Notes: generated by a model from the sequence alone, not told the origin. A stretch of DNA of 37,013 nucleotides from a virus (IMGVR_UViG_3300008266_000402:1-37013); one strand, 5' to 3'; shown: positions 331 through 15,881, numbered from the stretch's first letter. Numbers and translations are program-made.

Positions 331-671
331 TGCCTAGATTCCTAAATACCAGTGGGCTGACATCTGTAGCGATTGCCGTGTGCGATCGGTGCAAGATGAA
401 ACGCGCCTATGTGGACTTAGGGCCAGATCCCAACTTTCCTGGGCTTCGTGTCTGCGACCAAGGCTGTAAAGACCAGTTTGACCCCTATCGCTTACCGGCC
501 AGGAAGACTGAGCGGATTAATCTTCGCTTTCCCCGGCCGGATCTAAGCGTTGCAAATGTTCAACCGGCGTTGCAGACCGGTGGTTATGGCCAGTTCCTGA
601 TATCGACTCAGGGCAACCAAGATAACCCGGAAAACAACGGCAACCTCGATGTAATTAGCCCGAGCCCATAA
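330..671 (+). CDS. Small zinc-ribbon-like phage protein
   Basis: This 113-residue protein has CDRC at residues 18-21 and CDQGC at 42-46, giving two cysteine pairs about 20 residues apart, the spacing of a treble-clef or zinc-ribbon knuckle. The segment between them is hydrophobic and proline/glycine-containing. The C-terminal half is Asn/Gln/Pro-rich and probably disordered. It overlaps both neighbours by one base, between a connector-like gene and the first fibre gene, which suggests a structural or assembly role. Metal binding is inferred from the cysteines alone; the function is unknown. Confidence 0.6.
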   Translation: MPRFLNTSGLTSVAIAVCDRCKMKRAYVDLGPDPNFPGLRVCDQGCKDQFDPYRLPARKTERINLRFPRPDLSVANVQPALQTGGYGQFLISTQGNQDNPENNGNLDVISPSP

Positions 672-3600
672 TGCCTTCAGCCCAAGTCACCATTACCCAA
701 CTACCCGCCGCTGGCGCCATAACGGGCACCGAGGCGGTACCTATTGTCCAAAACGGGCAGACCGTCCAAACTACGACCGGGGCTATCGCTGCCTCGCCGA
801 GTCAGACGCAGACCTTTATTACGGTCAACCAAGAGCCTAGCCTTACAAATAGCCGGGCGCTGTCTGTCGGGGCGGGTTTAGGTCTTACCGATGGTGGGGC
901 TCAGTCCACCATGCAGATTAGCCTTGCCGGGGCAGTAGCCAGCCTGTTTTCCTCAACCTTGGGGCTACAGGCAAAGACTGGCGCCTCGACCATGGTTGGT
1001 CGCACGATTACAGGCTCCACGGGCGTTTCTGTAGCTGACGGCAACGGTGTCTCAGGAAACCCAACAATCAGCCTTTCAGGTGCCGTAGGATCGCTTGCAG
1101 GGCTAGCTGGCACCGGTATTTTGGGTATCGTCAGCGGAAGCAGCGTTACTGCCCTACAAATTACCGGCACAAATAATGAAATCGATGTAGCCAACGGAAC
1201 AGGCCCAGGCAATCCAACGATTGGCCTGTCGGATAATCCAATAGTTCCGGGCACTGGTGCAATAACCGTGCCAGTAGGCACCACCGGGCAGCGTCCGGGT
1301 GGAACAAACGGACAGATTCGATATAACACCACAAGCTCAAAATTTGAGGGTTATGCGGGCTCTTGGTTTACCTTCGGTTCAGGTGACGGGACGGTCACCT
1401 CTGTAGACGCATCTGGGGGCACGACCGGGCTGTCCTTTACAGGCGGTCCGATTACAACTTCGGGAACCTTAACGCTTACGGGAACCCCGACCAAGGCCAC
1501 AAATGTTGCCGGCGGAGCTGCTAACCAAGTTGTATTCCAAACCGGATTAGATACAACTAGCTTCATATCTGCCCCGGTCTCAACTGACACATTTCTTAAG
1601 TGGACCGGCAGCGCCTTCACCTGGGCAGCTTTACCAGGAGCGGGCACGGTTACCTCGGTGGATGTTAGTGGTGGCTCCACGGGATTAACCTTCTCTGGCG
1701 GCCCGATTACAACATCCGGAACCATCAGCATGGCCGGAACCCTGGCCACTGGGTATGGCGGCACAGGGCTTACCTCTTACACCGCTGGCGATATTGTTTA
1801 TTACGCCACCGGGACGGCTTTATCGAAACTTGCGATCGGCACTAACGGTCAGGTCATAACCTCATCGGGTACCGCACCGCAGTGGACTAACCAATCGAGC
1901 CTGTCAGTCGGCTCGGCCACAACGGCCACAAACCTTGCAGGCGGCGCCGCGGGGTCGATTCCGTATCAATCCGGCGCTGGAGCCACAACCTTCTTGGCCT
2001 CTGGCACAGGTGTCTTAGTAAATAACGGTGGAAGCCCGTCATATAGCCTTACCCCATCCGGGCTGACATCGGTAACGGTAACCCAGCCGCCGAGCTCGGC
2101 GTTGCAGCTGGCCACCAAGCAGTATGTGGACGATGCGGTTTCCTCAGGAATCACGATTCACACCCCAGTCCGGGTAGAGACTCCGACCGCCCTAAACGCC
2201 ACCTATACGCCTGGCGGCACCTCGGTGACGGTTACGGATATCGTGGGTGGCACGACCCTGACATTCTCAACATCCCCGAGCCTTTCGGTAAACGATCAGA
2301 TTGTCTTCTCGTCCACATCCAACGGGATCGTGGCTGGGACGGCTTACTATGTCTTCTCGGTGCCGGCGGCTAACCAGGTCACCCTGTCTCTGTCTTATAA
2401 CGGACCGGAGATCACGACCTTCACAAACGGCACTGGGCTTACGATTGGCGGCCTAGTAAACGCCGGGGTGGGGGCTACCCTAACCAACGCTGGGGCGAAT
2501 GCTGCCATCCAAATCGATGGGGTTAACTTATCTGCTACAAACCGGGTCTTGGTCTATAACCAGGCCAACGCAGCCCATAACGGCATCTACACGGTCACGA
2601 CGGTGGGTGATGGGTCTACCCCTTGGGTGCTGACCCGGGCGACCAACGAGAACACTTACAAGCCTGATAGCACCACAGGTCTTGGATCGGGAGACTACTT
2701 CTTCGTTCAAGAGGGTCTAACCGGGGCTGGTGAGTCTTATGTACTGACGACCAATAACCCAATAATTATTGGCACCACAAACCTTACCTTTACCCAGTTC
2801 TCGGCATCTCAGGTTTATTCTGCAGGCACAGGGTTAACCCTAACCGGAACTCAGTTCAGCCTGACATCCCCGGTTTTAACCTCCCTCGGTGGAACTGGGC
2901 TGACCTCATACACTGCCGGTGACCTGGTCTATTACGCGGCCGGTACAGCGTTTTCAAAGCTGGGTATTGGTAGCTCGACTTATATGCTTACCTCGAGCGG
3001 TACGGCCCCCCAGTGGACCGATCCCGCAACGGTTACCGTAGGAAACGCTACAAACGCCACGAGCGCGACCACGGCTACTACAGCCACCAATGTGGCCGGT
3101 GGAGCCGCAAATCAGATCCTTTATCAGTCCGGGGCAGGAACCACGACCTTTGCGACCGCCCCGACGGTAGCGAACACCTACCTAGAGTGGACCGGAAGCG
3201 CCTTCCAGTGGTCTGCAGTAGTTGCTGGCGTATCGAGTGTTACGGCCTCAGCCCCCTTGGCTTCCTCGGGCGGATCTACCCCCAACATCAGCCTTACGGG
3301 CACGGTTCTGACATCAAACGGTGGAACCGGGGTAACTTCATATACGGCCGGCGACCTGGTTTACTACTCCGCTGGAACCGCCCTAACCAAACTTGGAATC
3401 GGCGGCTCAACATTCTTGCTGACATCAAGCGGTACAGCTCCGCAGTGGTCTGACCCGTCTGGGGTTACGGTAGGTAATGCAACAAATGCGGGAACCGCAA
3501 CGAATGCAAATAATGTTGCAGTAACTGCCACATCAGTTAACGCAACTTTTTATCCAGCTTTTGTTGATGCTACGACCGGAAATCAGGCGGTAGAAGTAGA

Positions 3601-3688
3601 TTCTGACCTTACTTACAATCCATCAACTAATACTTTGACCGCCGGGACTATGGTGGCAACAACAGGAATTTTTGGAGGTACCTTTTAA
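671..3688 (+). CDS. Long repetitive tail fibre protein
   Basis: The 1005-residue product is dominated by Gly, Thr, Ser, Ala and Val, with few charged residues, as in trimeric beta-rich phage fibres. The N-terminus contains a TQLPAAG...TEAVPIVQNG pattern that I recall from N-terminal domains of phage tail fibres, likely the virion-attachment end. Two 32-residue repeats begin TVTSVD (bases 1391-1486 and 1646-1741). Three exactly 43-residue repeats with GGTGxTSYTAGDxVYY...SSGTAPQW follow (1757-1885, 2888-3016, 3320-3448). Residues around 480-700 form a different, non-repetitive domain. The last 50 residues (NATFYPAF to GIFGGTF) resemble part of the next gene's product. The start is set by TAATG overlap with the upstream gene. 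It probably forms the shaft of a host-recognition fibre. Confidence 0.8.
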   Translation: MPSAQVTITQLPAAGAITGTEAVPIVQNGQTVQTTTGAIAASPSQTQTFITVNQEPSLTNSRALSVGAGLGLTDGGAQSTMQISLAGAVASLFSSTLGLQAKTGASTMVGRTITGSTGVSVADGNGVSGNPTISLSGAVGSLAGLAGTGILGIVSGSSVTALQITGTNNEIDVANGTGPGNPTIGLSDNPIVPGTGAITVPVGTTGQRPGGTNGQIRYNTTSSKFEGYAGSWFTFGSGDGTVTSVDASGGTTGLSFTGGPITTSGTLTLTGTPTKATNVAGGAANQVVFQTGLDTTSFISAPVSTDTFLKWTGSAFTWAALPGAGTVTSVDVSGGSTGLTFSGGPITTSGTISMAGTLATGYGGTGLTSYTAGDIVYYATGTALSKLAIGTNGQVITSSGTAPQWTNQSSLSVGSATTATNLAGGAAGSIPYQSGAGATTFLASGTGVLVNNGGSPSYSLTPSGLTSVTVTQPPSSALQLATKQYVDDAVSSGITIHTPVRVETPTALNATYTPGGTSVTVTDIVGGTTLTFSTSPSLSVNDQIVFSSTSNGIVAGTAYYVFSVPAANQVTLSLSYNGPEITTFTNGTGLTIGGLVNAGVGATLTNAGANAAIQIDGVNLSATNRVLVYNQANAAHNGIYTVTTVGDGSTPWVLTRATNENTYKPDSTTGLGSGDYFFVQEGLTGAGESYVLTTNNPIIIGTTNLTFTQFSASQVYSAGTGLTLTGTQFSLTSPVLTSLGGTGLTSYTAGDLVYYAAGTAFSKLGIGSSTYMLTSSGTAPQWTDPATVTVGNATNATSATTATTATNVAGGAANQILYQSGAGTTTFATAPTVANTYLEWTGSAFQWSAVVAGVSSVTASAPLASSGGSTPNISLTGTVLTSNGGTGVTSYTAGDLVYYSAGTALTKLGIGGSTFLLTSSGTAPQWSDPSGVTVGNATNAGTATNANNVAVTATSVNATFYPAFVDATTGNQAVEVDSDLTYNPSTNTLTAGTMVATTGIFGGTF
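1391..1741 (+). repeat. Two 32-codon repeats within the fibre gene (TVTSVD repeat)
   Basis: Bases 1391-1486 and 1646-1741 encode TVTSVDxSGGxTGLxFxGG followed by PITTSGT. The copies are 255 bases apart and differ at few residues. This is a beta-rich shaft module typical of repetitive phage fibres. Confidence 0.8.
1757..3448 (+). repeat. Three 129-bp coding repeats within the fibre gene (GGTGLTSY repeat)
   Basis: Copies at 1757-1885, 2888-3016 and 3320-3448 are each exactly 129 bases (43 codons). The shared pattern is GGTGxTSYTAGDxVYY, then GTAxxKLxIG, then SSGTAPQW. Each is followed by an Ala/Thr/Asn-rich linker such as VGNATNA. Copies 2 and 3 are only 432 bases apart, while about 1.1 kb of other fibre sequence separates copies 1 and 2, which fits insertion of a module between repeats. 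Confidence 0.85.
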
Positions 3689-4257
3689 TGGCACAGGCAG
3701 GCTTTACCCCAATATCGCTGTATTACAGCACTACAGCAACGACGGTACCTAGCGCGGCAAACCTGGTGGCAGGTGAGTTGGCATTAAACATTGCCAACAA
3801 CGACATGTCGATGTACATGGAGAATGCGTCTGGCACGGTTAAGCTATTTTTCAATAACCCAGCCGCCTTAAAGTATCCAACTGCTGACGGAACTAACGGC
3901 CAGGCGATGGTGACCAACGGCGCGGGGGTGCTGAGCTGGACGACAATTACGAGCGGCGCCACGATCACTAACGACACCTCGAGCTCGACTGATTACTACC
4001 CGGCGTTCTTACAGGCTACCTCTGGGTCTGCCTTAAATATCTATACCAGTAACGCCAAGCTGCTTTATAAGCCCAGCACGGGTGAGTTAAAGGCAAGCGC
4101 ACCGGTGGCATCAAACGGCATATTTGTGAACAGCACCACCGTTAGCACGAGCTACACGATCGCCTCAGGGACCAATGGTTGGAGCGTGGGGCCAATTACT
4201 GTCGCCTCGGGTCAAAATGTAACGGTTTCATCCGGCCAACGCTGGGTCGTGATTTAA
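3688..4257 (+). CDS. Short tail fibre module protein
   Basis: This 189-residue product opens with GFTPISLYYSTTATTVPSAA then NLVAGELALN, a pattern I recognise from the N-termini of phage tail fibre or collar proteins. A TADGTNGQAMVTNGAGVLSW motif follows, which recurs in fibre genes of environmental phages. The section from YYPAF to NGIF matches the C-terminal 50 residues of the preceding fibre, so the two share a module. The last 40 residues (Ser/Thr/Val-rich) look like a small beta cap. It overlaps the fibre gene by one base and probably belongs to the same fibre complex. Its separate existence as a short gene may reflect splitting of a longer ancestral fibre. Confidence 0.7.
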   Translation: MAQAGFTPISLYYSTTATTVPSAANLVAGELALNIANNDMSMYMENASGTVKLFFNNPAALKYPTADGTNGQAMVTNGAGVLSWTTITSGATITNDTSSSTDYYPAFLQATSGSALNIYTSNAKLLYKPSTGELKASAPVASNGIFVNSTTVSTSYTIASGTNGWSVGPITVASGQNVTVSSGQRWVVI

Positions 4258-4266
4258 GGAGTAGAC

Positions 4267-4839
4267 ATGAGTACGATTTCAGCAGGACTTACCTCCGGAA
4301 CCTCGCTAGTCCACACTGGCGATACAACCGGCCAACTGCTTCTCCAGACCAACGGGACAACAACCGCGGTCACCCTAGGGACTGACCAAAGCGCAGTCTT
4401 TGCCAACAAGGTCACGATGGTCGGCACATCGAGTGCGGCTGGACTGAAGATTGCCGATGTCTTGGAGACCGCCACGATCTCGGCTACGGCAGCTACTGGA
4501 ACAATCAACTACGATGTAACGACCCAAGCGGTGCTGTATTACACATCAAACGCCTCGGCTAACTGGACGGTTAACTTCCGTGGATCGAGCGGCACGAGTC
4601 TTAATACCCTGATGGCAACCGGCGAGTCTTTGACCGTGGCCTTCTTTGTGACCCAGGGTGCAACGGCTTACTACAACAATGTGGTGCAGGTCGATGGATC
4701 AAGTGTTACGCCAAAGTATCAGGGTGGCACGGCTTGGAGTGCGGGTAACGCTAGCAGCATTGATGCCTACACTTACACGATCATTAAGACAGGCAACGCC
4801 GCCTTTACGGTGTTTGCAGCTCAGACGAGGTTTGCGTAA
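4267..4839 (+). CDS. Short fibre-like protein, head of adhesin module 1
   Basis: The 190-residue product has the N-terminal motif HTGDTTGQLLLQTNGTTTAV. It parallels STGDASGQLELQTNGTTRLT in the protein encoded at 9715, which occupies the same position upstream of the paralogous large gene. The remainder is a beta-rich domain rich in Thr, Ser and Ala with several aromatic residues near the end (YTYTIIKTGNAAFTVFAAQ). The sequence taaggag before the ATG supplies a ribosome binding site. The role is inferred: a virion-bound fibre piece or baseplate adapter for the large repeat protein that follows. It could also be decoration of the tail. Confidence 0.65.
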   Translation: MSTISAGLTSGTSLVHTGDTTGQLLLQTNGTTTAVTLGTDQSAVFANKVTMVGTSSAAGLKIADVLETATISATAATGTINYDVTTQAVLYYTSNASANWTVNFRGSSGTSLNTLMATGESLTVAFFVTQGATAYYNNVVQVDGSSVTPKYQGGTAWSAGNASSIDAYTYTIIKTGNAAFTVFAAQTRFA

Positions 4840-6851
4840 TGCCCCTGATCGCTACAAGAGGAGCAGCATCAGTTCAAGGGTTTGGGGAGTTCGCCCAGAC
4901 CACCGCACCTGTTTACATCGAAGATGTGTTCAGCACATACCTTTATACGGGTAACGGCTCTACACAGACTATTACCAACGGAATTGATCTGTCTACTAAA
5001 GGCGGGTTGGTTTGGATTAAAAATAGAAGTTTACAAGATTTTGGAAACACACGGGCGCATTGGCTTTTTGATAGCGCAAGAACTGCTGGTTATAGCCTTT
5101 CAACAAATAGCACTAGCGCACAAAGTTCTGTTTTTGGTGGATTAATTCCATTTAGCACGACTGGATTTTCAATAAATACAAGTGATCCTAACTTAAACGG
5201 CACTGGTTCTTCTGCATATACCTATGCCTCTTGGACATTCCGCGAACAGCCAAAATTTTTTGACATAGTTACTTATACCGGTACAGGTAGTGCAAGATCT
5301 GTATCTCATAACCTTGGTAGTACGCCTGGCTGCATTATTATTAAATGCACTAGTAACGCAGATCAATGGATCGTTTATCACCGATCAACAGGAACATCTA
5401 AGTTTTTGTATCTAAATACAACAGGTGCTGAACAAACATACTCTTGGATCTCATCTGTTGGTAGCACAAGTTTTACATTAAATGATGATTCTTCATTGTA
5501 TAACGCCAATGGAAGAACCTATGTTGCCTACCTCTTCGCCCATGACGCAGGTGGCTTTGGTCTGACCGGATCAGATAATGTGATTACTTGTGGAAGCTAC
5601 ACAGGAAACGGTTTAGCTCCTGGGCCAACAATAACACTTGGCTATGAACCACAATGGATAATGATAAAAAGAACGGATGCAGTAGGTAATTGGTTTTTAT
5701 ACGACAATATGCGTGGTTGGCCTGTCGGTTCAGATGCAAGAGAACTTTATGCAAATGATTCCTATCAAGAAGATGCATCAAGTTATAACCCGTGGATAAC
5801 TTCAACTGGGTTTTATCCAAGAAATGCTGATTCAAGGATGAACGCAGCTGGCGGGACATACATTTACATAGCAATCCGTCGCGGCCCGATGAAGACTCCT
5901 ACGAGTGGAACGAGTGTGTTTGCACCAAATACATACGCAGGAGGCACAGCAGGACGCTCATTTAGTTTGGGATTTGTTCCGGATGCTTTGTTGACTATGC
6001 GTCGAAACACAAGCAACTTTGACATTTTGCAATCTAGGCTAACCGGATTAGGTTATATGTTTACAAATGCAACAGATGCGGAAATTGCAGCCACATCTGG
6101 AATGCCGGCATGGGACGCACCAACAAACACAATAAGCCTTGCTACAGCAACATCAGTAACTGGATGGAACGCAAGCGGATCTAATTATGTAAATGAAGCG
6201 TTTGCTCGCGCCCCAGGCTTCTTTGATGTGGTCTGCTATACAGGTACAAGTGCTAATAGAACCTTAAATCACAATTTAGGTGTTGCGCCGGAACTTATTA
6301 TTCAAAAAAGTCGTGCGCCTGACCCAGGCGTTGTTGCTAATTATTGGTTGGTTGGCACAAACTTTGGAGCGTCAAATTACAGGCGCAATTGGCTTCAATT
6401 AACTGATGTTGGAACTACTTATACATACGCAGCAGGTGCTGGATTTTTTTCTCAACCAACATCAACCACATTTGGAATTACAGACAGCTACAACGCTTCT
6501 GGCACAACTTATATAGTTTACCTATTTGCAACTTTAGCTGGCGTTAGCAAAGTAGGATCATACACAGGAAGCACTAGCGTTCAAACCATCAACTGTGGGT
6601 TTACTAACGGGGCAAGATTTGTTCTTATTAAACGAACAGATGCTGCTGGAAATTGGATCGTATACGACTCTGCTAGAGGAATCGTTGCTGGAAATGATCC
6701 ATATTTACTATTAAACACAACAGGTGCAGAAGATGATGGTGACGATGACTTAGAAGCAGATTCGTCGGGATTTATTGTCAATCCAACCCCTGACGGAATT
6801 AGTAATCCAGGTATAAATGGCGCAACTTACATCTTCCTCGCAATAGCATAG
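4839..6851 (+). CDS. Six-repeat receptor-binding protein, copy 1 (DUF7483-like)
   Basis: The 670-residue product is built from about six degenerate repeats of 95-105 residues starting near residues 36, 146, 254, 366, 467 and 574. Each begins with a variant of YTGxG, has a central hydrophobic beta segment (for example GCIIIKC, WIMIKR, ELIIQK, FVLIKR) and most close with a TYxxYLFA or TYIYIAIR strand. A 35-residue N-terminal segment ends IEDVFSTYLYTG. I recall such repeats as DUF7483 in phage structural proteins; the name should be confirmed. The paralogue at 10274 shares the architecture and the C-terminal YIFLAIA. Base composition is clearly more A+T-rich than the chaperone gene that follows. 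It is probably the receptor-binding component, with repeats giving a multivalent or diversifiable binding surface; the ligand is unknown. Confidence 0.7.
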   Translation: MPLIATRGAASVQGFGEFAQTTAPVYIEDVFSTYLYTGNGSTQTITNGIDLSTKGGLVWIKNRSLQDFGNTRAHWLFDSARTAGYSLSTNSTSAQSSVFGGLIPFSTTGFSINTSDPNLNGTGSSAYTYASWTFREQPKFFDIVTYTGTGSARSVSHNLGSTPGCIIIKCTSNADQWIVYHRSTGTSKFLYLNTTGAEQTYSWISSVGSTSFTLNDDSSLYNANGRTYVAYLFAHDAGGFGLTGSDNVITCGSYTGNGLAPGPTITLGYEPQWIMIKRTDAVGNWFLYDNMRGWPVGSDARELYANDSYQEDASSYNPWITSTGFYPRNADSRMNAAGGTYIYIAIRRGPMKTPTSGTSVFAPNTYAGGTAGRSFSLGFVPDALLTMRRNTSNFDILQSRLTGLGYMFTNATDAEIAATSGMPAWDAPTNTISLATATSVTGWNASGSNYVNEAFARAPGFFDVVCYTGTSANRTLNHNLGVAPELIIQKSRAPDPGVVANYWLVGTNFGASNYRRNWLQLTDVGTTYTYAAGAGFFSQPTSTTFGITDSYNASGTTYIVYLFATLAGVSKVGSYTGSTSVQTINCGFTNGARFVLIKRTDAAGNWIVYDSARGIVAGNDPYLLLNTTGAEDDGDDDLEADSSGFIVNPTPDGISNPGINGATYIFLAIA

Positions 6852-6859
6852 GAACAATC

Positions 6860-7309
6860 ATGGAATACAGACTCAAATCAACCGGCGCAGTGATGTATGA
6901 AGGTGAACTCCGCCAGTACCTAAAAGATAACAATGGCCCGACCTTTGACCGGCTGACCGACGAGGTGATGCAGGTCATCGGTGTCGATCCGGTCTTTGAA
7001 GGCCCGCAGCCCACCACATCTGGCCCGTATGAGTTTGTCGTGCGGCAGGGCGTAGAGATGATCGGGGATAAGTGGCACACCAAGTATGTCGTGCAGACCC
7101 TGGATGACGAAGGCAAGGCGGCCAAGGACGAAGAGACCAAGAAATCCGTCCGGGCAGACCGCAACCAAAGACTGGCCGAGACCGACTGGCGTTTCCGTAG
7201 CGACATGACACCCAGCCAGGAATGGAAAGATTATTGCCAAGCCCTGCGCGATGTTCCTGCCCAGGCTGGCTTTCCCCACAATGTTCAGTGGCCTAACAAA
7301 CCGGAGTAA
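6860..7309 (+). CDS. Tail fibre assembly chaperone, copy 1 (Phage_tail_APC-like)
   Basis: The 149-residue protein ends with RADRNQRLAETDWRF, then YCQALRDVPAQAGFP, then VQWPNKPE. That is the hallmark C-terminal signature of phage tail assembly chaperones of the PF16778 type (RN..L..TDW ... YR..LR..P.Q.GFP..V.WP). The N-terminal half (MEYRLKSTG ... DPVFEGPQP ... RQGVEMIGDKWHTKYV) matches the paralogue at 12200. Such proteins are not usually in the virion; they assist folding or trimerisation of the fibre encoded just upstream. Its GC content is much higher than the preceding gene. Confidence 0.8.
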   Translation: MEYRLKSTGAVMYEGELRQYLKDNNGPTFDRLTDEVMQVIGVDPVFEGPQPTTSGPYEFVVRQGVEMIGDKWHTKYVVQTLDDEGKAAKDEETKKSVRADRNQRLAETDWRFRSDMTPSQEWKDYCQALRDVPAQAGFPHNVQWPNKPE

Positions 7310-7312
7310 ATC

Positions 7313-7627
7313 ATGCCAGCAATTATCAACGGCGATGGAATTTTTACCGCAGAGGGAACATCAACCACCCAAGGGCGCTTGCGTCTTGGTGAGGATACCG
7401 ACAACGGTACTAATTATGTAGAGCTACAGGCTCCAGCCAGCGTAGCCTCAAATGTCACCTTTACCCTGCCATCAGCCGACGGTACGACCGGACAGGTTCT
7501 ACAGACTGACGGTAGCGGCGCATTGAGCTTTACTTCAATATCGGGTGGTGCTCAAGGTTTTGTTACCCAAGCGACCGGAGCAAATGTGTCTCCCGGAACA
7601 GTCAACGATTCATTTGCCTTAATTTAA
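7313..7627 (+). CDS. Short fibre module protein
   Basis: The 104-residue product contains GRLRLGEDTDNGTNYVELQ, a threonine-rich beta segment (NVTFTLPSADGTTGQVLQTD) and GSGALSFTSI. I know this combination as a repeated N-terminal module of phage and cyanophage tail fibres. Here it stands alone as a small gene, starting adhesin module 2 that ends at 9711. It starts three bases after the stop of the chaperone gene. It probably anchors or extends the glycine-rich adhesin encoded downstream. Confidence 0.65.
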   Translation: MPAIINGDGIFTAEGTSTTQGRLRLGEDTDNGTNYVELQAPASVASNVTFTLPSADGTTGQVLQTDGSGALSFTSISGGAQGFVTQATGANVSPGTVNDSFALI

Positions 7628-7637
7628 GGAGATTTAA

Positions 7638-8039
7638 ATGGCAACTTCTGCACAGTACGCAGCCACCCCAAAGGTTGGATCTGCGCTTTTAACGACAGCG
7701 GATACCTCGCTGACCGCGCCTACGACGGTTGGTACGGTATTTACGGCGGGTTCCAGCGGCTCTCGGATCGACTACATCGACATCCAGGGTGTAGCCACAA
7801 CAACCGCCTGTATTGTTAACCTGTTTATCTTTGATGGCACAAACTACTTTTTGTGGCAACAGGTTCCGGTAATTGCGGTTACCTCAAGCACGACAGTCCC
7901 GGCATTTACCGCGGCTTTATCTAGTAACGGCAATGCCAACATCATGCCTCTGACGATTCCGACCGGATACTCGCTTCGTGCAACCGTTTCGGTGACCCAG
8001 ACTGGCATTCGTGTAATCGCTTACGGAGGTGACTTCTAA
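7638..8039 (+). CDS. Small beta-rich structural protein
   Basis: The 133-residue product is a Thr/Ala/Val-rich predicted beta-sandwich with the stretch CIVNLFIFDGTNYFLWQQVP and no charged C-terminal tail. taaggag sits 7 bases before the ATG. The stop overlaps the glycine-rich adhesin gene by one base, so co-expression is certain. Its position suggests a small accessory or decoration subunit of adhesin module 2. I do not recognise a named family. Confidence 0.55.
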   Translation: MATSAQYAATPKVGSALLTTADTSLTAPTTVGTVFTAGSSGSRIDYIDIQGVATTTACIVNLFIFDGTNYFLWQQVPVIAVTSSTTVPAFTAALSSNGNANIMPLTIPTGYSLRATVSVTQTGIRVIAYGGDF

Positions 8040-9322
8040 TGAACAAGGGAATGTACGGCTTTGGGTTGCCGCCTAACTATGCAACCCGTGTGGCTCCCGC
8101 TAGATGGTCACAATTCAAACTTATCACTTCAACCACTTCCACGGAGGTTGTGCCCCAAAATGTGTATCAAATCGGTGTAGCTGTTTGGGGTGGTGGTGGT
8201 AATGGTGCTTCAACCAATACTTCTAGCACTCCAAGCGCTGGGGGAGGTGGAGGTGGGTTTGCATATGGAGTTATTGATGTTATTCCTGGGCAGACGCTTG
8301 ACACCATAACAGTAGGAGGTCAAGGCGGAACAAGTTCTTATGGGACCCTGTTAACTGCTACTGGCGGCACTAACGCTTCTGGAAACACACCCGGATCAGG
8401 TGGATCAGGAACTGCTAGCGCAACATTAAGAGGCTCATATACCGCCTCTGGTGGTGCTGGTGGAACCGGGCAATCTTCAAACAATACAGCCGGAGGTGGA
8501 GGTGGCGCTGGATCTCATTACGGCACTGGTGGGGCAGGTGGAACAAACTCAGGATCAAGCACACAACCCTCTTCAACTGGTGGTGGCGGGCTTGGGCCAA
8601 ATGGCCGTGGTGGAAATATTGGTAGTTCGGTAAACCAAGGAAACCAAGCTACTGGCGGCGGCGGTGCAGGATTTAGAGGTGGTGACGCATTAGTTGCTAG
8701 TCAAGCCTTTATGACTGGCGGTGGTGGATCTGGTTCAAATGGCCAATCAGCAGCAGGCGGTAATGTCATTGGTGGAAATGGCGGGAGCGGATCGTTTGGT
8801 TCGACAGTTTTAGGTGGAGTTTCGGGAGCAGCCAACGCATCTGGATCAAATGGTGCTGGTATTGGTGCATTTAGTACATCTGGTGCATTTATGAGGGCTG
8901 GTAACGGTTCTGGTAGCGGCACATGGATTGATGTTATTTATCAAACCTTAAATGGTGGCGGCGGCGGAGCCGGAGCAAGCGGTGCGGTAATTTGTTTTGG
9001 TGGCAATGGCTCCCCCGGTGGTGGTGGCGGTGGAGCTTATAGCGGTACTGGATCGACAAATCCAACTGGCGGTGATGGCGGTTTAGGTGGTGGCGGTGGT
9101 GGGGCTTCTTCCGGTGACTCGGCTAGCCCAGCAGTTGGCGGAAATGGTGGTCCGCTTGGTGGTGGAGGCGGGGCATCTTGTCAAAGCTCTGCGAACACAC
9201 GGGGTGGATCAGGTAGTTACGCTGGAGGTGGTGGTGGTTCTTCACAGGGTGGTGGTAGTGGTTCTACCGCAGGTTCAGGCGGCACGGGTGTAGTTGTTCT
9301 TTATTGGACAGAAGGATTCTGA
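8039..9322 (+). CDS. Glycine-rich adhesin-like tail tip protein (gp38-like architecture)
   Basis: The 427-residue product begins with a globular 45-residue segment ending in YQIGVAVWGGGG. A roughly 350-residue region follows, packed with GGGG, GGxGG and TGGGGxG runs, and it finishes with GTGVVVLYWTEGF. The layout (short beta start, long glycine-rich body, short hydrophobic beta strand at the end) is that of phage adhesins that fold as polyglycine-II helices, such as the S16/T2 gp38 type. The glycine runs are interrupted by variable Ser/Asn/Thr/Gln/Ala segments, where host-contact loops would sit. I infer a receptor-recognition role from architecture and context only; no sequence homology to gp38 is claimed. 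Confidence 0.65.
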   Translation: MNKGMYGFGLPPNYATRVAPARWSQFKLITSTTSTEVVPQNVYQIGVAVWGGGGNGASTNTSSTPSAGGGGGGFAYGVIDVIPGQTLDTITVGGQGGTSSYGTLLTATGGTNASGNTPGSGGSGTASATLRGSYTASGGAGGTGQSSNNTAGGGGGAGSHYGTGGAGGTNSGSSTQPSSTGGGGLGPNGRGGNIGSSVNQGNQATGGGGAGFRGGDALVASQAFMTGGGGSGSNGQSAAGGNVIGGNGGSGSFGSTVLGGVSGAANASGSNGAGIGAFSTSGAFMRAGNGSGSGTWIDVIYQTLNGGGGGAGASGAVICFGGNGSPGGGGGGAYSGTGSTNPTGGDGGLGGGGGGASSGDSASPAVGGNGGPLGGGGGASCQSSANTRGGSGSYAGGGGGSSQGGGSGSTAGSGGTGVVVLYWTEGF

Positions 9323-9324
9323 TC

Positions 9325-9711
9325 ATGAAATACGCATGGATTGAAAACGGTCAAATTCGAGATGTGGCTTGGACTGATCCAGAAAAGATCTACCACCCCG
9401 ACATAGCCAAACTTTACGACACCCAAGTTCCTGACGATGCGGCTAACGGTGACGGCTGGGTAAACGGCCAACTGGTTAAACCAGAGCCACCTCCCCCGCC
9501 GGCCCCAATGCCTCGCTCGTGGACAGTGGATGACTTCCGTAAGGGTTTGAGCCTGGCTGAAAAGGTTAAATGGGACAACGACTCAGCGCCTGAAATCAAG
9601 ACGGTTAAGGCTGAGTTACCCAAACAGCAAGCCGGAGCGCAGGAGCTGGTTGATTTTCTGGTTGCCTCAAATGTCATCTCTCAGGCATCAGCAACAAAAA
9701 TTATGGAGTAA
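9325..9711 (+). CDS. Putative fibre-assembly chaperone-like protein of adhesin module 2
   Basis: The ATG at 9325 was chosen because aagga lies about 8 bases upstream; a TTG at 9304 would start inside the previous gene with no good site. The 128-residue product opens MKYAWIENGQIRDVAWTDP, then a segment containing YHPDIA and GDGWVNG, a proline-rich linker (KPEPPPPPAPMP) and a helical C-terminal domain (WTVDDFRKGLSLAEKVKW ... ELVDFLVASNVI). This order (ligand-like N-terminal domain, Pro linker, helical domain) is like small phage tail-assembly proteins. By position it corresponds to the chaperones at 6860 and 12200, but it lacks their GFP..V.WP signature. A chaperone role is inferred from synteny. 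Confidence 0.55.
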   Translation: MKYAWIENGQIRDVAWTDPEKIYHPDIAKLYDTQVPDDAANGDGWVNGQLVKPEPPPPPAPMPRSWTVDDFRKGLSLAEKVKWDNDSAPEIKTVKAELPKQQAGAQELVDFLVASNVISQASATKIME

Positions 9712-9714
9712 GAA

Positions 9715-10272
9715 ATGCCTTCAACCATAAACGCAACCTCATCCGGCTCGGGTGGCTTGATCTCGACCGGGGACGCCTCCGGTCAGCTCGAGCTGCAGAC
9801 TAACGGCACGACCAGGTTGACCATAGATTCAGGCGGAACCATTACTCTATCGAGCGCCCTGCCCGCCGGATCAGGCGGAACTGGTAATGCTTTTTTCTCG
9901 GTAGCTGGACCTGCGTCTACGGTAAAGACTTACACCTTCCCCAACGAAAACATGAGTGTTGGGTATAGGAATGTCCCGGCGGTCGGCACTAAGACAAGTT
10001 CTTACACTCTGGCAACGGCAGATGTAGGTAAATATGTTCAGGTCGGTTCTGGCGGTGCAATCGTAATTCCGGACGCTACATTTGCAGAGGGTGATGTAAT
10101 CAGCGTGTTTAACAACACCTCTGGAACCATCACGATCACCTGCTCGATTACTACTGCATACATCGCCGGTACAGACTCTGACAAGGCTACGATGACATTG
10201 GCTGCAAGAGGACTGGCAACCATTCTGTTTATCTCCGGTACCGTGTGCGTCGTTCAAGGAAATGTGACCTAA
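9715..10272 (+). CDS. Short fibre-like protein, head of adhesin module 3
   Basis: The 185-residue product shares the N-terminal GDxSGQLxLQTNGTT motif with the gene at 4267 (residues about 18-35) and then diverges. It continues with a GSGGTGNAFFSVAGP segment and a beta-rich C-terminal domain (KYVQVGSGGAIVIPDATF ... VISVFNNTSGTITITC). That last region resembles beta-sandwich domains found in the 15881 product, which has FTLIRNNGTGTVTLSP. It precedes the large repeat protein as 4267 does in module 1, so the two modules are related by duplication of the start and replacement of the rest. Probably a virion fibre piece. Confidence 0.6.
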   Translation: MPSTINATSSGSGGLISTGDASGQLELQTNGTTRLTIDSGGTITLSSALPAGSGGTGNAFFSVAGPASTVKTYTFPNENMSVGYRNVPAVGTKTSSYTLATADVGKYVQVGSGGAIVIPDATFAEGDVISVFNNTSGTITITCSITTAYIAGTDSDKATMTLAARGLATILFISGTVCVVQGNVT

Positions 10273-10273
10273 C

Positions 10274-12190
10274 ATGAGCGGAAATCAGCTTATGCTGGCC
10301 GGTGCGCCAGGAACCGTTGCTAATTACATCGAGGATGTGTTTAGCACCTACCTTTATACGGGTACTGGGGCTACTCAAACAATTACCAACGGTATTGACT
10401 TATCCACTAAAGGTGGGTTGGTTTGGACAAAATCAAGAAACCAAACCGGTAGTAACAGATTTAATGATACTGTTAGAGGGGCTACCAATGCTCTTAGATC
10501 AAATAGCACTGACGCCTCAACTGTTATAGCAAACGGGCTAACTGCTTTTAATACTAACGGCTATAACTTAGGCGATGATTCTGGAAACTCAGGATATAAC
10601 TTTAGTGCTTTGTATGATTATGTCTCTTGGACATTCCGCGAACAACCAAAGTTCTTTGATGTAGTTACTTATACTGGCACAGGCAGCCCAAGAACAGTTA
10701 GTCATAATCTTGGTTCTGCTCCAGGGTGCATCATAGTCAAACGATATGATTCAACAGGTAGTTGGGCTGTTTGGCATCGCTCTGGTACTCAAGCTTCTAC
10801 ATTTGGTGTAGGAACATCCGGATCGACTAATTCTAATGGCTTTACTTATGTAGCCTACCTCTTCGCCCATAACGCAGGTGGTTTTGGTCTGACCGGTTCA
10901 GATAATGTAATTACTTGCGGAAGTTATACAGGTAATGGGTCAACATCTGGGCCAACCGTAACACTTGGTTATGAGCCGCAATGGTTGATGATTAAAACAT
11001 CTACCACAACTGGTAGCTGGCAGATGATTGACAATATGCGTGGCATGGTTGTTAGTGGAGATGACCAACGACTAATTGCAAATTCATCCAGTGCCGAACT
11101 GACTAATGATTATTTAAGCCCAACAGCAACTGGCTTTCAGCTTGTTTCTACTTCAAGTGAAGTAAACGGAAACGGTCAAACCTACATCTACATCGCCATT
11201 CGCCGTGGGCCGATGAAGACGCCGACGAGCGGGACAAGTGTGTTTTATCCGCAAGCAGTTTCGCAAGCAGATACAGTTGATTCAACTAATGTTCCGTTTC
11301 CTCCTGATTTGGTAAATACCTTTAGTAGAAACGGTACGGATAGAACTCTTGGATATAACCAATTTCAGTTTGCAGACCGTTTACGCTCGTTAGGGGTTCC
11401 AAATAACACACTAATCGGAAGTGGGTGTCCATCCCTGCGTTCGTCATCATCATTTCAAGAGGCTACTTCATCATATATTCAACTAAAAGCAGACGGTCAA
11501 AACATAACCAGATCTAATGGGTGGAACAGCGCCACTTATGGAAACTGGATTTACTACTTTATGCGTCGCGCACCCGGTTTCTTTGATGTGGTCTGCTATA
11601 CAGGCACTAGTGCTAATACAACAATCAGCCATAACTTAGGTGTTGCACCTGAGTTGATTATTTGTAAATCAAGAAGTTCTAATCCCGGCGCTAATTGGGT
11701 TGTATGGAATCAAACACTTAATAGCAGTACTGGATATTTATATCTAAACGATACGCTTGAAGCAAGTAATTTTGCTGGTGTATGGAATGGTGCGCCAACA
11801 TCAACATACTTTACGCTTGGCACAAATTATCAAAATAACAATTCTGGAATAACATTTGTTGCCTATCTCTTCGCCACGGTAGCAGGTGTCAGCAAAGTAG
11901 GTTCCTACACCGGGACAGGTACAACGCTTCAGGTTAATTGCGGATTTACTGGTGGGTCTCGATTTGTTCTCATTAAGCGCACAGACTCAACTGGTGACTG
12001 GTATGTTTGGGACTCTGCTCGCGGTATTGTGGCTAGTAACGACCCTTACCTGCTTTTGAACAGCACGGCGGCAGAGGTCACTAATACCGACTATGTAGAT
12101 ACCTACAGCGCAGGTTTTGAAATTAGCAGCACAGCTCCGGCAGCGATTAATGCTAACGGCGGCACATATATTTTCTTGGCAATTGCTTAA
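10274..12190 (+). CDS. Six-repeat receptor-binding protein, copy 2 (paralogue of 4839)
   Basis: The 638-residue product has the same architecture as copy 1: an IEDVFSTYLYTG start, YTGTG-type repeats and a YIFLAIA end. Some DNA blocks are nearly identical between the two genes: 10853-10923 matches 5526-5596 at 66 of 71 bases by my count. Protein between these blocks is strongly diverged, for example the region after IAIRRGPMKTPTSGTSVF. The repeat between IAIRRGP and RRAPGFF is the least like the others. This mosaic pattern suggests intragenic module exchange between two adhesin copies. Function is inferred as receptor binding from the chaperone gene that follows. Composition is A+T-richer than flanking genes. 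Confidence 0.7.
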   Translation: MSGNQLMLAGAPGTVANYIEDVFSTYLYTGTGATQTITNGIDLSTKGGLVWTKSRNQTGSNRFNDTVRGATNALRSNSTDASTVIANGLTAFNTNGYNLGDDSGNSGYNFSALYDYVSWTFREQPKFFDVVTYTGTGSPRTVSHNLGSAPGCIIVKRYDSTGSWAVWHRSGTQASTFGVGTSGSTNSNGFTYVAYLFAHNAGGFGLTGSDNVITCGSYTGNGSTSGPTVTLGYEPQWLMIKTSTTTGSWQMIDNMRGMVVSGDDQRLIANSSSAELTNDYLSPTATGFQLVSTSSEVNGNGQTYIYIAIRRGPMKTPTSGTSVFYPQAVSQADTVDSTNVPFPPDLVNTFSRNGTDRTLGYNQFQFADRLRSLGVPNNTLIGSGCPSLRSSSSFQEATSSYIQLKADGQNITRSNGWNSATYGNWIYYFMRRAPGFFDVVCYTGTSANTTISHNLGVAPELIICKSRSSNPGANWVVWNQTLNSSTGYLYLNDTLEASNFAGVWNGAPTSTYFTLGTNYQNNNSGITFVAYLFATVAGVSKVGSYTGTGTTLQVNCGFTGGSRFVLIKRTDSTGDWYVWDSARGIVASNDPYLLLNSTAAEVTNTDYVDTYSAGFEISSTAPAAINANGGTYIFLAIA

Positions 12191-12199
12191 GGACACATT

Positions 12200-12673
12200 A
12201 TGGAACTACGAATTAAATCAACGGGCCAGGTTCTTACCGAAACCGAATGGCGTAAGTGGGTAGCCCAGACCTATGGCAAATCGGTGGGGCCAATATCGCC
12301 CGAGGCAGTCAGCCTGTTCGACTCCGATGTGGTCTTTGAAGGCCCGCAGGCAACCGGAGGAACGGTGTATCAGTACTCCATGCGCCAAGGGGTTGAGCAA
12401 CAGTCTGACGGCAATTGGTACACAAAGTATGTACTTGGCCCGATATTTAATAATTCAGAGGATGAGGCCGCATACAAGGCACAAAAAGATGCCGAACAGG
12501 CTGAGGCTGTGCGCCAAGACCGTAACAGAAGATTGGCAGATTGCGACTGGACACAGGTCGCCGATTCGCCGGTAAATGTAGCGATATGGGCTGCCTACAG
12601 ACAGCAATTAAGAGATGTTCCGGCGCAGGCAGGGTTTCCTTGGAATGTTCAGTGGCCGACACAGCCGGAGTAA
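12200..12673 (+). CDS. Tail fibre assembly chaperone, copy 2 (Phage_tail_APC-like)
   Basis: The 157-residue product aligns along its length with the 6860 product. MELRIKSTGQVL matches MEYRLKSTGAVM, VVFEGPQATGG matches PVFEGPQPTTS, and the C-terminus carries RQDRNRRLADCDW, YRQQLRDVPAQAGFP and VQWPTQPE. The C-terminal block is the PF16778-type chaperone signature. A longer acidic linker (NNSEDEAAYKAQKDAEQAEA) distinguishes it. It follows adhesin copy 2 by nine bases and presumably serves that protein. Two diverged chaperones for two diverged adhesins suggests matched pairs. Confidence 0.8.
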   Translation: MELRIKSTGQVLTETEWRKWVAQTYGKSVGPISPEAVSLFDSDVVFEGPQATGGTVYQYSMRQGVEQQSDGNWYTKYVLGPIFNNSEDEAAYKAQKDAEQAEAVRQDRNRRLADCDWTQVADSPVNVAIWAAYRQQLRDVPAQAGFPWNVQWPTQPE

Positions 12674-13123: not shown

Positions 13124-13576
13124 GTGTTGCCCGAACCTACCGACCCATCAAAGGTCGTCCAAACTGCTCTTGGTGGTATCCGAGAAGCCATAAAGGCTGG
13201 ACGGGACATCAAGGAAACGGCCAAGGAGGTCAACGCCTTCTTGGACGAAGAGGCGCGAGCCAGAGTTGCTTGGCGCAAAAAACAGCAGGAAGTCCAGCGT
13301 CGAGGGGACATGATGTTCATCGACGCCATCAACGAGTATCGGATTCTGTACAACATCCGCAGGCAAAAAGAGGATGCGTTTAAGCAGATAGAGAAAGAGT
13401 TTGGGCGAAAAGCGGTTCAAGAAGTAGAGCAATTAGAGGGAAGGCTTCGGAAAGAAAAGAAGGAACTGCAGCGGGAGTTTGAATCAGACCGCAAGCAGAC
13501 TAGGAATGAGTGGCTGGTATTGGGGGTATTGGCGTTGGTGATGTACGCAATACTTAAACTAACAAAGGTGTGGTGA
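13124..13576 (+). CDS. Coiled-coil protein with C-terminal membrane anchor
   Basis: The 150-residue product starts at a GTG directly after TGA, with tggag about 10 bases upstream. Residues 15-125 are almost entirely helical and highly charged (KETAKEVNAFLDEEARARVA ... EQLEGRLRKEKKELQREFES). Residues 128-146 form a transmembrane segment (WLVLGVLALVMYAILKL), ending KVW. The tail-anchored topology leaves a long cytoplasmic coiled coil. It is not a classical i-spanin, whose TM is N-terminal. In the lysis region it could be a holin regulator or antiholin, or an unrelated membrane-associated protein. I do not recognise the family. Confidence 0.6.
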   Translation: MLPEPTDPSKVVQTALGGIREAIKAGRDIKETAKEVNAFLDEEARARVAWRKKQQEVQRRGDMMFIDAINEYRILYNIRRQKEDAFKQIEKEFGRKAVQEVEQLEGRLRKEKKELQREFESDRKQTRNEWLVLGVLALVMYAILKLTKVW

Positions 13577-13986
13577 TGTTCACAGACAAAGAACTTAAAC
13601 GAGCCAAGATTGACATCCAAGCCGAGCTAAACCGGCTGGAGGCCCAACAGACAGCCAAAGAGGTTGCTGGTAAATCAATAGGCCGATACGGACTTTTTTA
13701 CATCACGCTGATCGTAATTATTGGGGTGGCGGCAAGCCTTCAGTTAGAAGAGGGCAAGATGGCTGCGGTCATGGGCCTACTGGGTGCGTCCCTGACAGCC
13801 CTGATCTCCATGATGAATGGAATCGCCGGCGCCACGCCTAAACAGGATAAGCCTGAGTTCGACATCATGAAGCAACTCATTGAACGCCTAGACCGGATGG
13901 CTGACCGCGACCCGATGACGGTCGATGTGGACGGGGAGAAGGTTACTGTCCGCAAGGGCGATAACGAAGTTAAGACAGCGAGGTGA
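13576..13986 (+). CDS. Two-TM membrane protein, holin-like
   Basis: The ATG at 13576 overlaps the previous TGA, with aaagg about 8 bases upstream; earlier in-frame GTG codons are less likely. The 136-residue product has an amphipathic N-terminal helix (DKELKRAKIDIQAELNRLEA), two membrane segments (about residues 38-57, LFYITLIVIIGVAASLQL, and 62-85, MAAVMGLLGASLTALISMMN) and a hydrophilic C-terminal domain (FDIMKQLIERLDRM ... DVDGEKVTVRKGDNE). Two TM segments with a charged C-terminus resemble class II holins, though the C-terminus is long. It sits immediately before the recognised 3-TM holin, so it may be a holin partner or antiholin. Confidence 0.55.
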   Translation: MFTDKELKRAKIDIQAELNRLEAQQTAKEVAGKSIGRYGLFYITLIVIIGVAASLQLEEGKMAAVMGLLGASLTALISMMNGIAGATPKQDKPEFDIMKQLIERLDRMADRDPMTVDVDGEKVTVRKGDNEVKTAR

Positions 13987-13988
13987 TT

Positions 13989-14396
13989 ATGTTACCTATT
14001 GGCACACTTTTAGAGATTGGCGGAAAGATCCTCGATAAGGTCATTCCAGACCCCGAAGCCAAGGCCAAGGCCCAGGTTGCACTTATGGAGATGCAGCAAA
14101 AGGGTGAACTGGCCCAGCTTCAGGCTGATATGAACGAGCAGGACAATCTGACTAAGCGGATGGAAGCCGACATGAAGTCGGACTCTTGGCTATCCAAGAA
14201 CATTCGGCCTATGACCCTGGTGTTTATTCTTATTACTTACACCGCTTTTGGCATGATGTCTGCGTGGGACATTGAAGTAAACAACAACTATGTTGAGCTA
14301 CTCGGTCAGTGGGGGATGCTAATCATGTCGTTTTATTTTGGCGGCAGGACGCTTGAAAAGATTATGGATATGAAGGCGAAGAAAGAAGAAAAATGA
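13989..14396 (+). CDS. Holin of the GTA 3-TM family
   Basis: The 135-residue product begins MLPIGTLLEIGGKILDKVIP, then DPEAKAKAQVALMEMQQKGE. It has a central SWLSKNIRPMTLVFILITY segment and a second hydrophobic segment LLGQWGMLIMSFYFGGRTLE. The order (IPDPEAKAKA helix, W-x-x-x-x-RP, membrane segments, basic end) is the pattern of the GTA_holin_3TM family (PF11351). Holins of this family form inner-membrane lesions that release the endolysin. The stop overlaps the endolysin ATG (ATGA). A GTG at 13983 is in frame but lies within the ribosome binding region (gaggtga). Confidence 0.8.
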   Translation: MLPIGTLLEIGGKILDKVIPDPEAKAKAQVALMEMQQKGELAQLQADMNEQDNLTKRMEADMKSDSWLSKNIRPMTLVFILITYTAFGMMSAWDIEVNNNYVELLGQWGMLIMSFYFGGRTLEKIMDMKAKKEEK

Positions 14397-14842
14397 ACCC
14401 CACCGATAAACTTTCGGAGAACTTTACCTATGAAGAACTTACTCGCTCGGATACGGCAGTTCGGCTCGGCGTTGAAAACACGCCTAATGAGTCTGAAATC
14501 GAAAATCTCAAAAGACTCGCAGCCCTCCTCCAAGAAGTCAAAAAAGCGATAGGGGGTAAAGCCGTGATGATCAACAGCGCCTACAGGTCTAAGCCTGTAA
14601 ACGACGCTGTCGGATCTAAAGACACCTCACAACACCGTTTAGGCTGTGCGGCTGACCTCAGAGTTCCGGGGATGAAACCACGGGAGGTGGTGGAGGCCTG
14701 CATAGCCGCCCAAGTACCCTTTGATCAGATCATCCTTGAGTTTGATTCTTGGACGCATATCTCTGTTCCAAACACACCTCAGATGCAGCCTAGAGGCCAA
14801 AAGCTGATAATTGACAAACAGGGAACAAGGGCCTTTTCATGA
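14393..14842 (+). CDS. Endolysin, M15 family D-Ala-D-Ala peptidase
   Basis: The 149-residue product is a single catalytic domain of the M15_3 type. The N-terminus has LSENFTYEELTRSDTAVRLG. The zinc site is SQHRLGCAADL (His81 and Asp88) plus WTHIS (His122), with a Glu nearby at 117 and the substrate-side motif INSAYRSKPVN at 60-70. No signal peptide or cell-wall-binding domain is present, so export through a holin is expected, as with the gene just upstream. It would cut peptide cross-links of peptidoglycan. Length is normal for single-domain phage enzymes of this class. Confidence 0.9.
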   Translation: MNPTDKLSENFTYEELTRSDTAVRLGVENTPNESEIENLKRLAALLQEVKKAIGGKAVMINSAYRSKPVNDAVGSKDTSQHRLGCAADLRVPGMKPREVVEACIAAQVPFDQIILEFDSWTHISVPNTPQMQPRGQKLIIDKQGTRAFS

Positions 14843-15246
14843 GCAGCGCAGTCAAATCCAACCCAGGAAAATGGAAGCGCATCGTCGCCCAGGTCAAGGC
14901 CTCGGGCAAGGGCGGCTCGCCTGGGCAGTGGTCGGCTCGGAAGGCTCAACTGGCCACCCAGAAGTACAAGTCGTCCGGAGGGGGCTATAAAGGCCCAAAA
15001 CGGGCCGATAACAGCCTCTCCCAATGGTCGAAGCAGGATTGGGGCACCAAGTCCGGCAAGCCCTCTACGCAGGGCCCTAAGGCCACCGGAGAGCGGTATC
15101 TGCCCAAAAAGGCCATCCAAAGCCTGTCGTCCTCGGAATATGCCGCCACCACCCGGGCTAAGCGGGAGGGGAAGGCGGCCGGCAAACAGTTTGTCTCCCA
15201 GCCTAAGTCGATTGCTGAGAAGACCAAAAAGTATAGGAGCTGGTAA
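14839..15246 (+). CDS. DUF5872-like basic protein
   Basis: The 135-residue product has WKRIVAQVKASGKGGSPGQW, then SARKAQLATQKYKSSGGGYK, a WSKQDWGTKSGKPSTQGPKA block and GERYLPKKAIQSLSSSEYAA, ending basic. I recognise this as the DUF5872 pattern, a family found in phages, giant viruses and some cellular genomes. Lysine, serine and glycine dominate and the predicted charge is strongly positive. It overlaps the endolysin by four bases and the adaptor gene by one. Possible roles are DNA or nucleoid binding, or packaging inside the virion; none is established. Confidence 0.75.
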   Translation: MSSAVKSNPGKWKRIVAQVKASGKGGSPGQWSARKAQLATQKYKSSGGGYKGPKRADNSLSQWSKQDWGTKSGKPSTQGPKATGERYLPKKAIQSLSSSEYAATTRAKREGKAAGKQFVSQPKSIAEKTKKYRSW

Positions 15247-15881
15247 TGACAGTTGCGGCCGTACAAACTTACGATTCTTTGGTAGACGATATCTCAACCT
15301 ACCTGGAGCGCACGGACACGGCCACGCTTGAGAAGATTCCGACCTTCATCATGCTGGCCGAGCAAGTTATCGCCTCAGAGATTAAGTTCTTGGGCAACCT
15401 GACCGTGATGCAAAGCACCATGGTGGCCACCCAGCCGGTGATCGATAAGCCAGCCAGGTGGCATAAGACGGTGTCTATGAATGTGGTCGTGGCCGGGGAG
15501 CGCAAGCCTGTCCTGCTCCGCAAATACGAGTACCTGCGGGAGTATTGGCCAGACCCCACCCAGACCGATGTGCCTAAGTTTTATTGCGACTACGACTACA
15601 CCCACTGGTTAGTCGCCCCGACCCCAACCTCAGGCTATACCTTTGAGGTGCTTTATTACGAGCGGATTCAGCCCCTGGATTCCTCAAATCAAACTAACTG
15701 GTTCACGATCTACGCCCCGCAGGCGCTGCTCTACGGTAGCCTCCTGCAGGCCATGCCTTTCCTTAAAAACGATGAGCGCATGCCGATGTGGCAGGCTCAG
15801 TACGACAAGATTATTAATACCTTGAAGACTGAAGACCTGACCCGGATTGCGGACCGTCAATCTACTGTATTGGATTCATAA
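15246..15881 (+). CDS. Tail adaptor protein (SU10/P22 gp4-like)
   Basis: The 211-residue product begins with a helical segment (TYDSLVDDISTYLERTDTAT ... IPTFIMLAEQVIASEIKFL), continues with a beta part ending in HWLVAPTPTSGYTFEVLYYE, and closes with a helical C-terminus (YAPQALLYGSLLQAMPFLKN ... IINTLKTEDLTRIADRQ). This arrangement is that of phage adaptor proteins such as the SU10 adaptor and P22 gp4, which dock under the portal and receive the tail nozzle. aggag lies about 7 bases before the ATG. The downstream order (fibre, nozzle, internal proteins) fits assembly of a short tail. Confidence 0.8.
   Translation: MTVAAVQTYDSLVDDISTYLERTDTATLEKIPTFIMLAEQVIASEIKFLGNLTVMQSTMVATQPVIDKPARWHKTVSMNVVVAGERKPVLLRKYEYLREYWPDPTQTDVPKFYCDYDYTHWLVAPTPTSGYTFEVLYYERIQPLDSSNQTNWFTIYAPQALLYGSLLQAMPFLKNDERMPMWQAQYDKIINTLKTEDLTRIADRQSTVLDS

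Follow-up and report, generated by a model that had tools for sequence, protein, structure and literature searches.

Several described phage systems bear on the locus reported here. In the cyanophage Pam3 (PDB 7YPX), the chaperone gp25 binds the glycine-rich fibre gp24 with a beta-sandwich N-domain, which is joined by a linker to a helical C-domain that trimerises, and among chaperones of this type the N-domain is variable and the C-domain conserved (PMC9608196). The distantly related Alteromonas phages A5 and V22 share a host-recognition module of fibre and chaperone, for which recombination has been proposed (PMC10579305). Free-standing endonuclease genes that lie beside essential genes mark exchange boundaries and drive the co-conversion of their flanks (PMC10448857, PMC2988022). 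At the locus described here three cassettes of the adhesin-plus-chaperone kind lie in a row, and we consider it probable (roughly 0.7) that they form an exchangeable array of receptor-binding cassettes, in which chaperones are matched to the class of the adhesin and adhesins are exchanged under resident chaperones.

The window, by which we mean the whole stretch of 37,013 nucleotides analysed, is bases 1-37013 of a 46,037-base IMG/VR virus record from an uncultured, freshwater-type phage. The terminase shares 67.5% identity with its counterpart in a spring-water Caudoviricetes record and about 45% with those of Caulobacter phages, and an SU10-type adaptor gene is present. The window also carries a phosphoadenosine phosphosulfate reductase-like gene (33778-34659; PHROG 424, E 2.7e-55) and a 1678-aa ORF with no PHROG match (19664-24700). 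Another record, L163, holds an ORF of at least 1491 aa that starts just downstream of the terminase gene and runs off the record's edge (13564-18036).

The first gene of the fibre region encodes a tail-fibre-like backbone protein of 1005 aa (671..3688, on the plus strand, as are all features of the region described below; PHROG 30390, E 7.8e-36). It is conserved in relatives, and most related loci keep a 113-aa gene (window 330-671) in front of it. A short fibre- or connector-like protein of 189 aa (3688..4257), which gives weak PHROG matches to tail-fibre and baseplate families, also keeps its position in relatives. The array itself (4267-12673) consists of a connector, a DUF7483 gene and a PF16778 gene, then two small ORFs, a glycine-rich gene and a gene for a small two-domain protein, then a second set of connector, DUF7483 gene and PF16778 gene. 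We refer to adhesin 1 and APC1 as cassette 1, to the glycine-rich protein and CH2 as cassette 2, and to adhesin 2 and APC2 as cassette 3. Gene order, the pairing of domains, and the exchanges with their boundaries can be read directly from the DNA.

Cassette 1 begins with a connector of 190 aa, GDTTGQLLLQTNGTT (4267..4839; PHROG 5906, E 6.3e-26). The adhesin 1 candidate that follows is a DUF7483 protein of 670 aa (4839..6851) that matches PF24299 at E 3.4e-92, scoring 309.5 bits against a curated cut-off of 27. A profile of one repeat of about 100 aa detects six copies in it (residues 33-130, 137-240, 253-342, 365-458, 459-568 and 573-647), so that the "six-repeat" label of the preliminary description holds for this protein. 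The predicted structure is all-beta at moderate confidence (pLDDT 81.6). An attempt to assign a fold to DUF7483 from the adhesin 1 model gave no useful PDB match: the PDB fold search returned nothing at E <= 0.001, and neither sequence nor fold led to a relative with a solved structure. Among the papers searched, none named DUF7483. We infer from position, repeats, variability and the tail or structural labels of the PHROG matches that DUF7483 proteins are adhesin candidates. The candidate chaperone APC1, of 149 aa (6860..7309), combines a PF16778 (Phage_tail_APC) C-domain (E 2.6e-19; 69.2 bits against a curated cut-off of 26.6) with an N-domain of the DUF7483 type.

The corresponding genes of cassette 3 are a connector of 185 aa, GDASGQLELQTNGTT (9715..10272), an adhesin 2 candidate of 638 aa as assembled (10274..12190; PF24299, E 2.6e-97, 326.3 bits against the cut-off of 27) and a candidate chaperone, APC2, of 157 aa (12200..12673; PF16778, E 1.2e-21, 76.7 bits against 26.6). 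Two overlapping contigs (L008 and L164) that both span 10792|10793, inside repeat 2 of adhesin 2, carry 99 bp there that the window lacks; the missing bases leave the reading frame intact, and a third contig (L088) terminates exactly at 10792. The gap is likely an assembly fault, in which case the real protein would have the 671 aa of the L008 form; strain variation is a less likely explanation. Adhesins 1 and 2 are 52-53% identical (26th to 35th percentile of family pairs) and the two chaperones 47% (11th percentile). The two DUF7483 cassettes are thus at least as far apart as family members paired at random and look like independent acquisitions; on this ground the duplication of one cassette within the genome was rejected.

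Cassette 2 starts with a connector-like protein of 104 aa (7313..7627), which is conserved with a sister phage described below and has connector-type profile matches in relatives, and continues with a small protein, S133 (7638..8039), that usually lies directly 5' of the glycine-rich gene; a glycine-rich gene is the next one after 58 of 70 S133 homologues. The glycine-rich adhesin candidate of 427 aa (8039..9322) matches PHROG 4474 (E 2.9e-7) and, below threshold, PF21722 (E 0.0043). When it was tested as a protein of the Pam3 gp24 or S16 gp38 type, it scored 17.5 bits against Pfam Gly_rich_2, under the cut-off of 24.3. The candidate chaperone CH2 completes the cassette (9304..9711, with the domain starting at ATG 9325), and 63 of the 65 CH2 homologues that have a called neighbour likewise stand behind a glycine-rich gene. 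The preliminary description had placed two genes between 7313 and 9711, one glycine-rich and adhesin-like, the other chaperone-like. Both are present, though the interval holds four ORFs rather than two.

The confident model of CH2 (pLDDT 92.9) has beta strands within residues 2-51, a Pro-rich linker and helices within 68-127. Its top PDB fold match is the Pam3 fibre complex (7ypx_a), weakly (E 0.046, prob 0.66, TMq 0.32), and a sequence search of the PDB with CH2 gave no match to the Pam3 chaperone at E <= 1. A BFVD search returned mainly unnamed phage proteins. We keep CH2 as a putative architectural analogue of the gp25-type fibre chaperone. The idea that it is a remote member of PF16778 was not supported: there was no Pfam match and profile comparison gave a probability of 0.1%. 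The two families do meet in one protein: locus L029 (4513-4896) encodes, behind a glycine-rich adhesin, a chimeric chaperone with a CH2-type N-domain and a PF16778 C-domain. Four PF16778 chaperones found behind glycine-rich adhesins carry a YAxIENG-type N-terminus that resembles that of CH2 by eye, and the CH2 family profile picks out just one of them, the L029 protein (E 5e-7).

One could also read the PF16778 and CH2 products as virion components, such as a tip or an adaptor, instead of chaperones, since a related family, PHROG 8716, is named "tail fiber protein". Most of the families matched are, however, named for tail fibre assembly, and the Pam3 analogue gp25 was not detected in virions by mass spectrometry (PMC9608196), so that we regard a structural role as improbable.

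To view the array in context we compared related contigs, using the flanking genes as anchors. The relatives share a fixed frame, [357 aa]-[113 aa]-[fibre]-array-lysis-adaptor, and the interval between fibre and lysis genes is highly variable in content. Glycine-rich genes with CH2 occur without DUF7483 in L184, L200 and L368, and a single DUF7483 gene with its PF16778 chaperone occurs without the glycine-rich pair in L016/L017; each cassette can therefore stand alone. The window has the most recognised cassettes among 35 arrays bounded at both ends, a tally that includes overlapping and duplicate records and counts known families only, and is thus a lower bound for the other arrays. These data bear on the proposal that a single fibre, branched or composite, is built from the three large proteins in succession, joined head to tail by the connectors. 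Such a fibre would suit the tightly packed, same-strand genes with connector genes between them, and also the tandem DUF7483 pairs that are followed by a single PF16778 gene in L052, L074 and L157. It is at odds with the separate occurrence of the two kinds of cassette and with the sister phage, which swaps cassette 3 and keeps cassette 2; moreover, no fusion ORF of connector and adhesin was found. Nor did any ORF join an adhesin to its chaperone. We consider a single composite fibre unlikely. By ORF calls, Pfam and PHROG, every gene named in the preliminary description lies where it was placed and belongs to the family guessed, and the comparison across relatives that it proposed, by finding cassettes of both kinds singly, bore out its view of three adhesin-plus-chaperone cassettes on one genome.

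The sister phage (contig 3300046011_004185, 55.8 kb; loci L324 and L240) has a backbone about 91% identical to the window. Identity of about 91% extends over window positions 1-4839 and 6840-9824; the divergence between them spans the whole adhesin 1 gene and the conserved segment from 6840 covers APC1 and cassette 2. In place of cassette 3, with the 5' part of its connector kept and divergence beginning after about 9824, the sister has a connector, a glycine-rich protein of 304 aa and a protein of 137 aa, and identity returns at 12854. Its first adhesin, also a DUF7483 protein, is closer to adhesin 2 (67% identical) than to adhesin 1 (49-53%), whereas the chaperone behind it is close to APC1 (93%) and distant from APC2 (47%). 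One adhesin lineage therefore stands behind two chaperone lineages. Endonuclease-like ORFs flank the sister's first adhesin: the downstream one (L324 17025-17555) matches NUMOD3 at 32.1 bits against a curated cut-off of 20.4, and the upstream one (L324 14513-15076) has no Pfam match and is HNH-like by eye only.

The relationship between adhesins and chaperones was examined across hundreds of related loci, which yielded 121 unique DUF7483-PF16778 modules; most loci were fetched with a DUF7483 query and the contigs overlap and are related, so the counts describe the DUF7483 neighbourhood and not natural frequencies. Behind DUF7483 genes of at least 500 aa, PF16778 is directly next in 132 cases and follows an insert in 23; 16 lack it and 10 lie at a contig end. 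Adhesin and chaperone identities in the 121 modules are correlated weakly (Mantel r 0.29, null maximum 0.15, with modules permuted and descent uncorrected), and some co-inheritance or mild specificity is therefore possible. This correlation is what might be expected if each chaperone had co-evolved with its own adhesin allele, giving three strictly dedicated pairs, and no pair of modules combines adhesins at least 80% identical with chaperones below 65%, though few adhesin pairs reach 80%. Against dedicated pairs stand the sister, which retains its chaperone under a replaced adhesin, and 40 module pairs in which chaperones are at least 90% identical and adhesins less than 62%; in the extreme case (L023/L058) the chaperones are identical and the adhesins 53% identical.

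Dividing the adhesin by region sharpens the picture. In the 82 modules with an S190-type connector, again permuted as modules and uncorrected for descent, chaperone similarity correlates at r 0.24 with the N-terminal 40 columns of the adhesin alignment and at 0.15-0.16 with the adhesin body (3 of 499 permutations as high), and is nearly uncorrelated with the last 100 columns (r about 0). Connector similarity correlates with that of the chaperone (r 0.42) and, at r 0.51, with the same 40 N-terminal columns, whereas for the adhesin body the value is about 0. Shared descent of the contigs could account for part of the connector correlations; taken together, the values fit adhesin bodies that would move while the frame around them changes less. 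Of 7213 pairs, 24 show adhesin genes that are mosaic at the DNA level, for the most part in the last repeat. Some of these mosaic pairs extend to similar chaperones (e.g. L044/L048), and the chaperone is thus not left behind in every exchange. With the adhesin body nearly independent of chaperone similarity, strictly dedicated pairs seem to us a very doubtful explanation. The preliminary description had inferred allele-specific chaperones that diverged together with their adhesins, and the sister's retained chaperone (93%) under a replaced adhesin 1 (49-53%), together with the 40 discordant pairs, speaks against both points. Interchangeable chaperones, which it had named as evidence contrary to its reading, are what the sequences show inside the DUF7483 class.

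Specificity appears instead to reside at the level of adhesin class, and to lie in the chaperone N-domain. The DUF7483-type N-domain was recognised by profile in 116 of 117 PF16778 proteins behind DUF7483 genes and in 0 of 19 behind other adhesins (Fisher p 2.6e-22), with HMMs built from the same loci in which the matches were then counted. A contrast less open to shared descent, because it is made within one contig, comes from contigs other than the window that carry two PF16778 genes: in 15 of 15, it is the PF16778 copy following the DUF7483 gene that has the DUF7483-type N-domain, although four of these contigs (L148, L149, L152 and L156) look related and two (L060/L063) overlap. The tandem DUF7483 pairs with a single PF16778 gene are consistent with one chaperone serving two adhesins.

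Our preferred reading of the array, as exchangeable receptor-binding cassettes under class-matched chaperones, can be set out as follows. The array is bordered by the main tail-fibre gene on one side and by the lysis genes on the other. The large protein of each cassette would be the adhesin, and we infer that all three are in the virion, to which the connector, together with the first 40 or so residues of the adhesin in DUF7483 cassettes, presumably docks. The last gene of each cassette would encode a tail-fibre chaperone acting on the distal part of the adhesin. This chaperone would be modular, with an N-domain that fits the adhesin class (one type for DUF7483, another for glycine-rich proteins) and a C-domain, either the shared PF16778 domain or the analogous helical domain of CH2, that presumably trimerises. 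Within a class a single chaperone appears to serve very different adhesins, and the adhesin body would therefore be exchangeable while connector, anchor and chaperone stay.

Several junctions between DUF7483 and PF16778 genes hold an inserted ORF, with Pfam matches to NUMOD3 in L324 and L078 and to GIY-YIG in L139. The window's own record was searched for a homing endonuclease with NUMOD3 and none was found. When the L324 NUMOD3 protein was used as a query, without adhesin sequence, against viral contigs (viral_contigs, IMG/VR), it retrieved 24 loci, two of which matched an unrelated GIY-YIG gene weakly and over a short length and were set aside; because it is based on short peptide patterns, the search reaches close relatives only. 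Among the remaining 22 loci, one (L090) was already known to have the order DUF7483-insert-PF16778, and the gene order at the other 21 was read after the endonuclease query. In 21 of the 22 the NUMOD3 gene has a DUF7483 gene immediately upstream, the exception (L407) being cut by the contig edge, and in 21 PF16778 comes next, L412 having another ORF there. Adhesin specificity of the whole endonuclease family was ruled out, as genes for more distant relatives (e.g. 37-61% identity along part of the sequence) have other locations, which in two of three records examined were tRNA clusters of T4-like phages.

Where an endonuclease sits at the junction, the 3' end of the adhesin gene is altered: LAIA is the C-terminus of 1 of 32 adhesins with such an endonuclease versus 90 of 100 without (p 2e-20), a contrast that shared descent may inflate and in which the 32 include distant loci from the endonuclease query. 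In the adhesin-derived set, 16 alleles with an endonuclease could each be set against the closest relative lacking one, and in several cases an identity of 86-90% over the preceding 300 bases falls to 60% (L067/L027 and L073/L009) or 63% (L024/L056) over the last 30. Such ends would fit an insertion that arrives together with a terminal stretch of the gene it targets. ORFs of HNH or GIY-YIG type also lie upstream of some adhesins, and many exchanged adhesins have no endonuclease at all. Adhesin exchange driven by endonucleases is a plausible extension of the class-matching reading. In a more specific form, which we put forward tentatively and hold to be possible rather than probable, the NUMOD3 subfamily would be specialised on DUF7483 3' ends, cutting the junction in co-infecting phages and copying in its own adhesin by gene conversion, and the resident class-matched chaperone would make the new adhesin work at once; the two endonuclease-free alleles of the window are predicted to be sensitive.

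Matching at the level of class suggests that a phage could swap its attachment protein and still fold the replacement at once, and an endonuclease tied to the junction makes a possible driver of host-range gene exchange testable on cloned genes. Compared with known systems, cassette 2 resembles Pam3 in having a glycine-rich candidate fibre followed by a candidate chaperone with a beta N-domain, a linker and a helical C-domain, the fold match of CH2 to Pam3 being its best in the PDB, if weak. Pam3 is described with a single-protein fibre (PMC9608196), whereas the window has three arrayed cassettes of two adhesin classes. The A5 and V22 modules differ in having DUF4376 chaperones, and homing endonucleases are absent from that text (PMC10579305). 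Roseobacter phages CRP-4 and CRP-9 and the Manatee Spring phage MW202710 share with the window a PF16778-type gene directly behind a DUF7483-type gene, but in each record only one gene of the DUF7483 type and one chaperone were matched. Tail fibres are absent from the two texts on homing-endonuclease islands and T4 marker exclusion (PMC10448857, PMC2988022); here, by contrast, a particular endonuclease subfamily goes with a particular adhesin/chaperone junction.
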